Shown here: piece by piece, positions 1 through 3,599 of the stretch
Layout of the letters: each line of letters begins with the position of its first letter
How positions within the stretch are numbered: position 1 is the first letter of the stretch
Source: Saprospiraceae bacterium
Lineage (GTDB): Bacteria > Bacteroidota > Bacteroidia > Chitinophagales > Saprospiraceae
Assembly (NCBI GenBank): GCA_020850225.1
Contig: JADZFD010000074.1
Location: 1 to 64,000 of the forward strand
Length of the DNA stretch: 64,000 nucleotides
Direction: 5' to 3'
Made by a program: the position numbers and the translations under genes
The notes under the pieces: model-generated
Told to the model about the DNA's origin: nothing
The model's input: only the letters and a program-made list of their open reading frames with translations
Databases searched by the model: none

Positions 1-110
1 ATCGTAATGTCAAAAGTGCGTCTATCGCAAAAATAGCAGTAAATACAGGAGGATACCACTGTGTGCGATAGAAAAAGCATTTTGACCATGAAGAGAACGG
101 TGCCCCGCAA

Positions 111-219
111 TCGCCTTTTTTGACCTAGACTTTTTGTTTACTTTTTTGGCAATGAAAAAAGTAAAAGCCTAGCCCGCGTTAGCATTCCAAAGGAATAAGT
201 GAGAGCAAAAAAAAGGCGA
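111..219. repeat. Nested inverted-repeat element
   Basis: An outer 11-bp inverted repeat (TCGCCTTTTTT at 111-121 and AAAAAAGGCGA at 209-219, within a longer A-run starting at 207) encloses a perfect 11-bp hairpin (TTTACTTTTTT at 137-147, AAAAAAGTAAA at 155-165, 7-base loop) and a small hairpin (ATTCC at 184-188, GGAAT at 192-196). The arrangement looks like a compact folded intergenic repeat, similar in style to the short palindromic elements scattered in many genomes. It carries no ORF. That it is dispersed elsewhere in the genome is inference. Confidence 0.55.
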
Positions 220-313
220 CAAAATATAATGAAGCAATAAGATTTATAATAAAAGTGCAATTTGTTATACACACGACAACATACTTATTTATATGTTATT
301 CAGAAAATATAAT

Positions 314-321
314 TACTTTTG
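314..321 (+). promoter_or_regulatory. Candidate -7 promoter box (TACTTTTG)
   Basis: TACTTTTG matches the Bacteroidota -7 consensus TAnnTTTG exactly and lies 27 bases before the ATG at 349. No convincing TTTG -33 box is seen at the usual spacing. Confidence 0.5.
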
Positions 322-348
322 TGTCCGTATTTTTTTTAATACTTCCAT

Positions 349-1407
349 ATGAATAGTAAAAAAATAGTCTGGCTGGTCTTTGGCTTAATTTTAATTGGTG
401 GATTTATCTATATTTATCCCACATTGCCTTTTAAGAAGAAGGCTCTGCAATTCAAAGATATTGTTGCATCCAATACAATGAATGAAAAGGTTGCTCATGG
501 TAAGCCATATACTTTTACCCTGAATAAAGACGGACTTAGTGGCCAGGATTCAGTTGTGCTTGTTTTGGACGGAACACGGCTTACGCAGGTTGAGGGAGAA
601 TACTCCATAGAAATACCAACCACATCGCTACCATTGGGATACCACAAAGTAAATATCACAGCATACCGGGGAGATAAAAACAAAACCGTAGAGCTCATTT
701 TCTATGTAGTCTCTGATATCCAGCCGGAACAGATGGTACATGCTGTTACGCAGGTCATCAACCGGGATACTGAAGCCTACACACAGGGACTCGAGATACA
801 CAATGGCATCTTGTATGAAAGCGGTGGACAAACTGGTCAATCGCTTATCAGAAAGGTTAATCCAAATAATGCACAGGTATTAAAAAAAATCAAATTAGAC
901 GGTGAGTTATTTGCTGAAGGTCTTACAATACTGAATGACAAAGTATATCAACTGACCTGGCAGAATGGTATATGTTTAATATATGACCTTGAACTCAATC
1001 AGCTAAAAAAAATAAATTTCAAATCTTCCAACGGTGAAGGCTGGGGTTTGTGTCATGATGGGAAAAGCCTGATCATAAGTGACGGTTCCAACAAACTTAC
1101 ATACGTCAACCCTGAAACATTTGCCATAGAAAAAACCATATCCGTTTATGCGGGTGACAGGGATGTTCAGTATCTCAATGAACTGGAATATGTAGATGGC
1201 TTCATCTATGCCAATGTATATACAACCAATCAGATAATCCAAATAGAAGCGTCTACAGGCAAGGTATTAAAGGTAGCCGACTTCAGTGATCTGGACAAGG
1301 GCAACCCCAAAGCTGATGTACTTAATGGCATAGCCTGGAATCCGGCATCTCAAAACTTTATCCTTACCGGTAAATATTGGGGAAAGCTGTATTATGTAAA
1401 AATGTAG
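349..1407 (+). CDS. Glutaminyl-peptide cyclotransferase, membrane-anchored
   Basis: Glutamine cyclotransferase-family protein (352 aa), which converts N-terminal glutamine of peptides to pyroglutamate. The N-terminus has one hydrophobic segment (about residues 7-27) with no lipobox cysteine, so it is probably a signal anchor holding the enzyme on the periplasmic side. A roughly 100-residue linker or Ig-like part follows. The C-terminal two thirds carry the beta-propeller family signatures, including DTEAYTQGLE, ESGGQTGQS, LFAEGLT and the WGL motif after GEGW. The ATG start is supported by the hydrophobic N-terminus and the TACTTTTG box upstream. It stands alone: more than 500 bases separate it from the next gene. 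Family assignment is firm; the natural substrate is unknown. Confidence 0.88.
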   Translation: MNSKKIVWLVFGLILIGGFIYIYPTLPFKKKALQFKDIVASNTMNEKVAHGKPYTFTLNKDGLSGQDSVVLVLDGTRLTQVEGEYSIEIPTTSLPLGYHKVNITAYRGDKNKTVELIFYVVSDIQPEQMVHAVTQVINRDTEAYTQGLEIHNGILYESGGQTGQSLIRKVNPNNAQVLKKIKLDGELFAEGLTILNDKVYQLTWQNGICLIYDLELNQLKKINFKSSNGEGWGLCHDGKSLIISDGSNKLTYVNPETFAIEKTISVYAGDRDVQYLNELEYVDGFIYANVYTTNQIIQIEASTGKVLKVADFSDLDKGNPKADVLNGIAWNPASQNFILTGKYWGKLYYVKM

Positions 1408-1502
1408 TACAAAGTATTTAAAAAATTAAAGTTTTGGAGTTAAGTTTGATCAACAACAGGAGTGTATCAGTATAAACTCCCTGTTAACAAAATATAAAAA
1501 AA

Positions 1503-1676
1503 CAAGGTAATAAAGTATAGCTATTAAGGTAATAAGGTTACGGTTTCCATATCAAATGATATATAATATTGAACTTAATACCTTAATATAAATCAAACAA
1601 TCATCACACGTTCAACAACCTTATTCCTTTTATAGCATCACGTAATCATCATACACTCATATACCTTATTACCTTG
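1503..1676. repeat. AAGGTAATA-type direct and inverted repeats in a 518-base spacer
   Basis: The gene-free stretch 1408-1925 holds repeated short words. CAAGGTAATAA (1503-1513) and AAGGTAATAAGGT (1526-1538) are followed by inverted copies: TACCTTAATA (1579-1588, pairing with 1522-1531) and ACCTTATTACCTT (1663-1675, a perfect 13-bp match to 1526-1538). Alternative stem pairings are therefore possible. An imperfect hairpin around 1454-1486 may end transcription of the upstream gene. No ORF is supported. Confidence 0.5.
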
Positions 1677-1925
1677 GTAAAAACTCTTGACTGAGCCAAA
1701 CTCTATTTATTTACCGCCTTATAATATTAATTTAACTAATTATACTGTAATTTAAACTTTCACATTACTTAGGTAAATATGAAAGCAAAGAACTCCATAT
1801 CAATAAAAAAATCGTAAGTATATATCAGAAAACACTAAATAAATGCGTTATATGTTGTGATTTAAGGTTTTTATGAACAATTTTGCATCCAAATTTTTAT
1901 CATTGAAATATTTTTACAGAACAGG

Positions 1926-3599
1926 TTGATACATAAGATTGTAAATATCATAACATATGCAGTGATGCTGACAGGCATTTGCGGATTGGTGTCATGTGCC
2001 AACACAGGAAGGATATCAGGTGGAAGTAAGGACATCAATCCACCGGTGCTGGACACACTGCTGTCCTCACCTGACAAGCAAACCAATTTTAATCCACGAC
2101 AACTGGTGTTTTTTTTTAATGAATTTGTTGAAGTAAGAGATCCGGCAAAACAGATTCTCGTTTCACCACCACTGACATATATACCATCCGTCAAATCAAG
2201 GGGAAAAAAAGTTGTTTTTACGCTGGATGAAAAGGAAGTACTTCGGGATAATGCAACCTATACCATTAACTTCGGTGAGGCCATAGTTGATTTTCACGAA
2301 GGTAACAAACTTCATAACTTCAATTATGTTTTTTCAACAGGTGATTATCTGGATAGCCTCAGTATTTCAGGCAAGATATACAATGCCAAAACCGGAGATC
2401 CGGAACAGAATATGATTGTAGTACTCTATGACATATCAGAGGATTCTATAGTTAGCAGGGAAAAGCCTTTTTATTTTACAAAACCGGACAGAAACGGCAA
2501 TTATATATTCAAAAATATCAAATCTGATACATTTAAACTCTTTGCACTCAAGGACGAAAACCTCAATTACAGGTATGACCTGGAGACGGAGATGATTGCA
2601 TTCCACAATGAACCCATCATACTGACTGGCAGATCCATTGACAGTGTGTTGCTCAGGTCTTCACTACCTGTCCCAGCATTGAAACTAAAAACCAAAAACA
2701 TCAAAAATTACGGCAAAGCAACATTAAAATACAATACTGATATTAAAGGAGATTTGCCTATAGCTATTCAACCGAAAGAGATACTGCATTACACAGAAGT
2801 ATTGGGTGATTCATTAGGTATTTACTACGAAACACCTTTGGATTCATTTTTCATATTTGCCGGAAGAGATACAGTGAAAGTATTGCCCAAAGGCAAAAAA
2901 GAATGGATGTCCAAATCCAGATTAAAAGCCGTAAGTCCGGTACATAAGAAGAAAATTCACCCTTCAGACTCCGTCACTATTGTATTTAACTATCCGGTTG
3001 AGTCCTTGGATTTTAATCAATTCCATGTATCAGATACGATTGGTCTGCTGGAAAATGTACTATTCAGATCTGATGATTTACATAAGACAGTTATTATCAG
3101 CTATCCATGGGAATTGGGACAAATGTATACTATTGAATTGGACAGCGGAACTATCAGCAGTATGTACGGACATTTAAATGAAAAAGTAAAGGTGGAATTT
3201 TCAGCACTCAGCTTAGGTAATTCAGGTTCTCTACTCATTCATATTGACGAGTTGGACAGTACAAAAACCTATGCAGTACACATCCATAAGGATAAACAAC
3301 CACTGTATGGATATACATTTAAGCAGGTAGCAGATGCAAACATTGAGTTAGACCTTCTGGAACCTATGAAATATAATATTGAAATCATTCAGGATGACAA
3401 TGAAAACGGCGTGTGGGATCCGGGAGATTACTACAATCACAGGCAACCAGAATGGGCCTTTTTGTACAAGGGAGACATCCTGAAGATAAACAGAGAAAAC
3501 AAAGTACATATCTCCTGGAAGAAATCCCTTGAGTTTTTGCTGGAATCCAGGGATGCCGGCAATGATAAAATTAGTAACCCTTTCGAAAATAGAAAATGA
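1926..3599 (+). CDS. Ig-like-domain lipoprotein (Big_5 type)
   Basis: Large predicted lipoprotein (557 aa) of a family common in Bacteroidota and found near cell-envelope genes. The signal peptide ends in a lipobox with the acceptor Cys at residue 24 (GLVSC). Residues about 35-140 form a bacterial Ig-like domain of the Big_5 type (the PPVLD start and the motif around [14 protein letters not shown]), and a second similar segment follows near residues 335-430. Translation most likely starts at TTG 1926: the frame is open upstream to a stop near 1863 but offers no ATG, and the first internal ATG (1965) would leave too short a signal peptide. Its stop overlaps the lptB start by four bases (ATGA), so the two are probably co-translated. 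Function is unknown; a role in the envelope is inferred from the lipobox and from lptB. Confidence 0.8.

Follow-up and report, generated by a model that had tools for sequence, protein, structure and literature searches.

A Saprospiraceae MITE with ISKra4-type ends and a nested-stem module found also in elements with other ends

The window, meaning the whole stretch of 64,000 nucleotides analysed here (G000:C74:1-64000), is the start of contig C74 in a 3.25-Mb draft genome of a Saprospiraceae bacterium in 113 contigs. It opens with a group of palindromes, followed by a gene (Table 1). The initial annotation had described these palindromes as a nested unit of 109 bases, and its reading of the letters holds: the arms of the outer inverted repeat pair at 11 of 11 positions (TCGCCTTTTTT at 111-121 with AAAAAAGGCGA at 209-219), as do those of the perfect inner hairpin (TTTACTTTTTT at 137-147 with AAAAAAGTAAA at 155-165), a 5-bp hairpin joins ATTCC (184-188) to GGAAT (192-196; read by eye), and 111-219 contains no ORF of 60 or more amino acids, the first listed ORF beginning at 349. 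It was also argued that this much ordered pairing exceeds chance. The pairing alone is modest evidence for this, because 100-230, folded as a single RNA strand (z -2.09), is equalled or bettered by 4 of 200 dinucleotide shuffles; the strong evidence comes from copies elsewhere. Two parts of the initial description fail. The boundaries of the 109-base unit are wrong, as the element extends from the contig start (window position 1, where it is cut) to 274, and the outer 11-bp repeat is present only in a long form of the element and is not its basic pairing. No Rfam family was found for window 1-2000, with one chance match elsewhere (E 0.26).

Table 1. Features at the start of the window, with position, strand and basis of assignment.
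Feature	Position	Strand	Basis or remark
Right ~274 bp of a ~430-bp non-autonomous element (MITE)	1-274	+	Copies read with flanks; left side cut by contig start
3' part of nested-stem module core	1-125	+	Alignments A3, A5 and A6 with pair counts; window letters
Module stem GTCAAAAGTGC / GCATTTTGAC	9-19 / 77-86	+	Alignments and window letters
Module stem CTATCGC / GCGATAG	22-28 / 65-71	+	Alignments and window letters
AATCGCCTTTTTTGACC, with 3' arm of module outer stem	109-125	+	5' arm off contig
Left arm of reported outer repeat, part of 3' arm of module outer stem	111-121	+	Copies
Tail hairpin TTTACTTTTTT-GGCAATG-AAAAAAGTAAA, shortly 3' of module core	137-165	+	
Long-form stretch: ATTCC/GGAAT hairpin and A-run completing outer repeat	171-214 (limits approximate)	+	Copies compared
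Right terminal inverted repeat GTGTGTATAACAAATTGCAC, 0 mismatches	255-274	-	Pattern search
9-bp target-site duplication GACAACATA	275-283	+	Second copy adjoins left end on contig C30
Putative Bacteroidetes -7 promoter box TACTTTTG, 39 bases beyond the element's right end	314-321	+	TAnnTTTG pattern
Downstream gene: glutamine cyclotransferase, 352 aa	349-1407	+	Pfam PF05096, E 1.7e-80

The feature is neither single-copy nor without conservation. The genome search that had been proposed as a check finds 29 places in the own genome that match a 121-base query over the palindromes at E <= 6.2e-17, 13 over the full span and 16 in part, and related genomes hold copies as well. Read with their flanks, the copies extend well beyond 109 bases and have in common a left end GTGTGTATAACAAATTGCACAAAATTTTGATAAT... 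and a right end ...TAATAAAAGTGCAATTTGTTATACACAC. Among those resolved at both ends, five are of a long form of 428-432 bp (L002, L009-L012) and two of a short form of 387 and 401 bp (L016, L018), which has GGCTCGA-type letters where the long form has extra bases with a small hairpin and an A-run. The 29 places divide into 13 long-form, 13 short-form (L020 being counted here from its last two letters), 2 chimeric and 1 right-hand fragment. The reported outer repeat belongs to the long form only, being present at 13 of the 29 places and in one right-hand fragment, and its second arm is altered, by eye, in L006, L010, L011, L012 and L021. Nineteen own-genome copies extend sufficiently to the left to show the stretch with the 111-121 arm opposite an arm of the GGTCAAAAACAAGCGAT type, some 130 bases upstream; in the window this partner is missing, lost at the contig edge. 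With many similar copies and no internal transposase gene, the element is a MITE.

The 20-bp end GTGTGTATAACAAATTGCAC occurs at 55 sites in the own genome with up to 3 mismatches (33 forward, 22 reverse), and the reversed control pattern at 0 forward sites and 1 reverse. The initial annotation had advised looking for target-site duplications, and ten exact 9-mers are common to left and right flanks, the window's own among them; in 3 pairs both flanks lie at a single locus, and the other 7 pairs bridge contig ends. The 46 right flanks compared included some misread ends, of which the ten exact pairs contain none. Registers shifted by 1, 2, 3 or 20 bases gave 0 exact flank matches in all four cases, and matches of 7, 8, 10 and 11 bases numbered 0, 1, 0 and 0. 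Three of the seven copies resolved at both ends carry an exact duplication (L002, L009 and L018), the flanks of L016 match in 7 of 9 letters (by eye), and L010, L011 and L012 are without a matching 9-bp duplication. Many contigs of the draft terminate inside element copies. The window copy most likely continues on contig C30, because its right flank at 275-283 equals the left flank of the element at the C30 end; the left half (C30:13642-13785) was assigned by this common 9-bp duplication, and judging from other copies about 16 bases lie unassembled between the two halves.

Several other arrangements were seen among the own-genome copies. L027 (contig C20) and L028 (contig C49), 91.6% identical over 533 aligned bases, are a chimera of two MITE families, starting with an ISKra4-type left end and the module and finishing in CAGCAGACCCTA, which is the other end type; 111 identical bases common to the two loci may reflect a local duplication. 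Tandem or nested insertions are seen in L035 (contig C36) and L051 (contig C107), each with two left ends 66 bp apart, and in L005 (contig C10), where an element is followed head to tail by part of another. L049 (contig C89) and L006 (contig C105) hold element halves with a common duplication, AAAGACATA, and in both the element sequence stops at about the same point, as if interrupted by another insertion.

A trace of the enzyme that would move these elements adjoins the same end type in the own genome, where a 128-aa C-terminal remnant matches ISKra4-family transposases (E 1.7e-20). A second ISKra4-family remnant is more decayed, and no complete transposase gene was found in the own draft genome. 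With just these two broken remnants in the draft, the family is probably stranded for now; alternatively, its transposase copy has been lost or is missing from the assembly. A search with the remnant gave matches in 7 of 60 genomes (own and relatives, own included), and ends were looked for in four of the other six (L089 and L090 were left out). In L085 (G022) and L086 (G010), perfect 20-bp ends enclose ORFs of 305 and 331 aa, for which ISKra4 is the best NCBIfam match (E 2.5e-49 and 1.7e-48). L086 is flanked by a 9-bp duplication, AGTGAAGAC, and no target duplication was seen at the ends of L085; L087 (G033) has diverged ends, and none were found at L088. The two ORFs span profile positions 121-422 and 114-422 of 422, lacking the first ~115, and score under the curated cut-off of 205 bits. 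Ahead of each lies a shorter ORF in a different frame (67 and 73 aa), and the transposases of L085 and L086 may be frameshifted genes, programmed or broken. The initial annotation had proposed mobilisation in trans. The identical 20-bp ends on ISKra4-family elements in two related genomes support its premise, and we infer that such a transposase would have moved the own-genome copies in trans. Ends of this type also occur on a ~205-bp element with a different interior (L064/L069, G012:C5), whose perfect ISKra4-type ends mark it as a further MITE family and which lies 37 bp from a TAnnTTTG box, and at 17 sites with at most 1 mismatch in G035 (L066, L105, L115, L124, L129). G035 is absent from the list of 8 genomes in which the module was found with model R1, though it may not have been among those scanned.

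The position of the window element relative to the downstream gene also recurs. The consensus of the Bacteroidetes -7 box is TAnnTTTG, and an exact match lies 37-39 bp outward of 13 of 54 own ends and of 12 of 48 same-type ends in other genomes, one L085 end included; on the opposite strand, the same own and other-genome ends have no TAnnTTTG at that offset. With one mismatch allowed the counts become 17 of 54 and 17 of 48, against means of 3.3 and 2.0 over all 3-base windows. Many elements are without an exact box at the fixed distance, and the peak concerns only part of them. In the own genome the box accompanies 10 of 24 right ends vs 3 of 27 left ends (L007 and L019 being counted as right ends by their inward letters), and one of the 3 left-end boxes is inside a neighbouring tandem copy. 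If insertions near promoters were simply those that do no harm, one would not expect a peak three bases wide from their survival alone. TAGGG-type ends, another end type found with the module, have a box at this offset in only 1 of 35 cases, which gives no support to promoter targeting by the module instead of by the ends.

Given the 4-bp -33 box and the spacer of 19-21 bp in a Bacteroidetes promoter, the 38 bp to the -7 box translate into roughly 13-15 bp to the -33 box. This agrees with the predicted sigma-A promoters 13-17 bp from ISKra4-group ends in the available text of Guerillot et al. 2014 (PMC3942029), and promoter proximity is for that reason known ISKra4 behaviour, seen here with another promoter type. 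In the mechanism we propose, an ISKra4-family (prokaryotic Mutator-like, DDE) transposase would recognise the 20-bp ends GTGTGTATAACAAATTGCAC. Its insertions would duplicate 9 bp of target, often fall ~38 bp upstream of the -7 promoter box of a gene, and turn the right end towards that gene more commonly than the left. Its observed basis is the copies, the ends, the 9-bp duplications, the identical ends on transposase-bearing elements and the promoter-box peak. We are highly confident that the window palindromes are the inner part of a MITE, ~430 bp in its long form and ~390-400 bp in its short form, which an ISKra4-family transposase would have moved. The element is in this sense ordinary in kind. 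A promoter-targeting MITE of Bacteroidetes extends Mutator-like transposon behaviour to the phylum's own promoter type, and it shows how elements can adjoin many genes without breaking them.

What lies inside the element is less ordinary. The interior carries a module of ~190 bases in which an outer stem surrounds a second nested stem pair (a core of ~150 nt), followed by a T-rich/A-rich tail hairpin. Between genera the letters of the stems change completely while the pairing is kept, as in the outer stem variants of different lineages (GTTCAAAAAA/TTTTTTGAAC, AGTTTCATTA/TAATGAAACT, CGTCTGCTTA/TAAGCAGACT and GTTTTCATCA/TGATGAAAAC); unpaired stretches, in contrast, are conserved across genera (AGCGATAGTGAACGAAG, GGAATTGCG and GGTGC..GCAATCGCC). 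Two-sided changes occur in 26 of 37 pairs in a model-fitted alignment of 24 copies from 8 genomes and in 27 of 37 in one of 32 non-own copies from 8 genomes, and none of 500 shuffles reached the observed counts. In these alignments 95% (24 copies) and 93% (non-own) of cells are paired vs 36-44% with a slid partner. Because A5 and A6 were fitted to the structure they lean towards it; in the unfitted alignment A3, two-sided changes occur in 6 of 37 pairs, again with 0 of 500 shuffles as high. Further pair types, one of five measures, discriminate weakly, with 9 of 500 shuffles reaching A3 and 170 of 500 reaching A6. The compensatory changes exceed those of both shuffled and slid controls, as for a structured nucleic acid under selection. 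Rfam searches of 7 module loci returned 6 matches at E 0.077 or worse, all under the gathering score and none at the module, a tRNA/tmRNA search of five loci found none, and in the open-access papers, as far as their available text goes, we found no description resembling the element or the module.

In a scan of the genome collection, a 20-base interior motif matched 12 contigs of a MAG labelled Aureispira sp. CCB-QB1 isolate MiH-14oct19-171 (G008). Sharing between genera by way of this MAG was dropped, as G008 belongs to the window's own genus; between-genus sharing rests on G013, G275, G306, G386 and G092. Most of the G008 interior copies read adjoin another end, TAGGG(T/C)(C/T)TGCTGAAAAAG, with AAGCAGGCCCTA-like right ends in three copies (by eye). 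Model R1, built from 11 copies, matched 8 of 248 genomes of the family: the own genome, G006, G007 and G008 of the same genus, and G013, G275, G306 and G386 of other genera. A search of the 395 genomes of the class with model R2, under strict filters, yielded matches in the own genome and G092 alone, and the module is therefore not common. G092 represents another family of the same order, probably Chitinophagales. There the module lies within elements with a third end pair, ACTGAGTATCCGC / GCGGATAGTCAGT; 7 of 8 fetched copies were resolved at both ends (423-482 bp), two of these 7 with an 8-base A+T-rich duplication (by eye). Two copies in G013 tentatively have yet other ends in common, AAGTTTCGGTA (by eye), and hairpins related to the tail hairpin, in other letters, are seen by eye in G013, G275, G306 and G092. 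Among viral contigs, one motif pattern gave 4 matches, none a module by R2 at E up to 1, and a second pattern gave 0.

One copy may have no carrier at all. L134 (G008) and L165 (G007) represent a single copy found in two species: the loci align over 2.2 kb at 79%, both flanks included, with the outer and inner stems unchanged and the inner loop largely replaced. No transposon end was recognised by eye at either locus, and the TAGGG pattern is absent from L134; the module thus appears to stand alone at one orthologous locus in the two species. Because it is found in elements with other ends as well as at this stand-alone locus, the module behaves, judging by its sequence contexts, as a unit of its own that would have been taken up by mobile elements more than once. 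The carriers with TAGGG and ACTGA ends, because their ends differ, would have been moved by different transposases. That related bacteria keep one module inside transposons with quite different ends is unusual. If repeated capture is confirmed, the module would be a transferable trait of transposons and not one family's property, and a candidate for a new class of structured DNA or RNA.

Related arrangements were seen in several genomes. In G007, L254 and L258 carry the module, and L242, L244, L246 and L252 are ~220-300 bp elements with TAGGG-type ends and without it, the same end type occurring both ways. In G008, a series of TAGGG-type elements (L249, L251, L253, L255, L259, L262, L263, L265-L271) keeps the module's outer arm, but the multi-hairpin interior that comes next is a different one, with GTGCAAAGCACCAAAGGCAAAGCCTTTGAC. 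A tail hairpin, GGTTACTTTTTTGGC(A/G)ATGAAAAAAGTAAC, recurs 3' of a different closed stem in L132, L135, L136, L139, L140 and L142 (G273, G021); the outer stems of the G021 loci covary by eye, the G273/G021 loci gave 0 matches to model R2, and they possibly belong to a wider superfamily.

How the module works, if it works at all, can be approached through its pairs. RNA stems usually accept G.U much more readily than A.C. In the 24-copy set, one doubtful pair left out, the 830 cells comprise 783 Watson-Crick, 9 G.T, 7 A.C and 31 other; stems P1, P1b and P3 of the non-own set have 725 Watson-Crick, 4 G.T, 4 A.C and 14 other; and all pairs of the non-own set have 1050 Watson-Crick, 26 G.T, 12 A.C and 67 other, 15 of the 26 G.T falling at one doubtful pair. 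Because G.T in the main stems is no commoner than A.C, unlike in most RNAs, the counts lean to pairing at the DNA level or to arm-to-arm correction. Our preferred reading is that the module acts as folded DNA, not RNA, and would be kept because it helps its carrier elements. We offer it tentatively in its full form, in which a portable nested-hairpin cassette, selfish or symbiotic, would be read as folded DNA and adopted, within this order of Bacteroidetes, by transposons with different ends and presumably different transposases for a fold-dependent benefit, such as access to single-stranded DNA at replication forks, protected transposition intermediates or insulation of neighbouring promoters. 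It is also possible, and we hold this just as tentatively, that the module represents a non-coding RNA, or a domain within one, which is produced by transcription of the element or of an upstream gene and rides in MITEs as a functional passenger. Structured RNAs typically show what is seen here, namely nested stems, numerous two-sided changes and conservation of unpaired stretches; a stand-alone copy is maintained at an orthologous place, and R1 scores 38-171 bits on the same strand in 24 copies and 19-36 bits on the opposite strand in 12 of them (the opposite-strand matches, 12 of 36, being left out by a stricter E-value). Yet complete copies match no Rfam family, G.T in the main stems is as rare as A.C, unlike in most RNAs, and by eye the left arms have no common TAnnTTTG promoter and the tail hairpin no T-run 3' of it.

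Rather more doubtful is a module without function, in which template switching at quasi-palindromes during replication keeps the arms complementary and the module rides in any MITE that contains it. Strict Watson-Crick pairing is what arm-to-arm correction would produce, but correction alone keeps arms alike and does not fix them to one sequence. Own-genome identity (27 pieces; misread, tandem or divergent ends and L049, with a non-element interior, were left out) is 0.98-1.00 in the stems, 0.985 in the tail hairpin and 0.97 in the first unpaired stretch, vs 0.885 in the inner loop and 0.881 in the left arm. Unpaired core stretches are moreover conserved across genera, and the module is found again in elements whose ends differ and at an orthologous locus that has kept the outer and inner stems but not the inner loop. 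We consider it very unlikely that the module is an atypical REP, moved as single-stranded DNA by a Bacteroidetes RAYT of subclass 2.6. Atypical secondary structures do flank subclass 2.6 genes, mostly of Bacteroidetes, in the available text of Quentin et al. 2018 (PMC6006769), and 19 of 20 genomes tested have a Y1_Tnp match; the module, however, lies near only 1 of the 30 Y1_Tnp loci scanned with R2 (of 62 matches in all), namely L226, where it is ~0.3 kb from the gene and behind a TAGGG end, the gene is flanked by palindromic repeats of other kinds in at least 6 of 9 loci inspected (by eye), and G275 has the module and no Y1_Tnp match. With 30 of the 62 Y1_Tnp matches tested, this reading is largely refuted, and of the initial wording, REP- or MITE-like, the second half stands and the first falls, the size and foot of a REP being absent too. 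The flanking repeats are an observation of their own: short palindromes accompany Y1 transposase (RAYT-type) genes in L225-L228, L235 and L236 (by eye), one type, CTGGCGCAAGTTTG..., being common to L226, L228 and L235, with L225, L227 and L236 differing. Least probable by far is a lone intergenic hairpin that would serve the neighbouring gene, perhaps as its terminator or attenuator; the window feature is just upstream of a gene and folds as RNA, but this reading is refuted by the terminal repeats, the target duplications and the occurrence at 29 places whose flanks differ.

Several known systems resemble parts of what we describe. Bacterial MITEs and modular repeats such as Correia, ERIC, BOX and RUP are short, non-coding and multi-copy, with inverted ends, internal structure and more than one length form, and the element here has all of these traits; what sets it apart is that one internal structure is common to elements with different ends. 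The module resembles REPs and their RAYTs (IS200/IS605-like) in being palindromic DNA that possibly acts as a folded single strand. Unlike a REP hairpin of about 21-65 nt, its core is ~150 nt, it has no GTAG-type foot (by eye), and it comes with DDE-type ends and target duplications and is not linked to RAYT genes. Within the same phylum, the available text on Porphyromonas gingivalis (PMC4596501) reports a MITE with an internal minisatellite, which is likewise a MITE with a distinctive interior, although that interior is a tandem repeat and the one here a covarying nested-stem module. A further likeness is to the ISKra4-group elements (p-MULT 4, prokaryotic Mutator-like, with TnGBS/ISLre2), which have the same ends and a promoter peak at a fixed distance. 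The available text of Guerillot et al. 2014 (PMC3942029) places promoters on both sides of ISKra4-group elements, whereas here the right end is more often next to the promoter, and the element differs further from that group in being non-autonomous, in lying near Bacteroidetes-type promoter boxes and in carrying a structured module inside.
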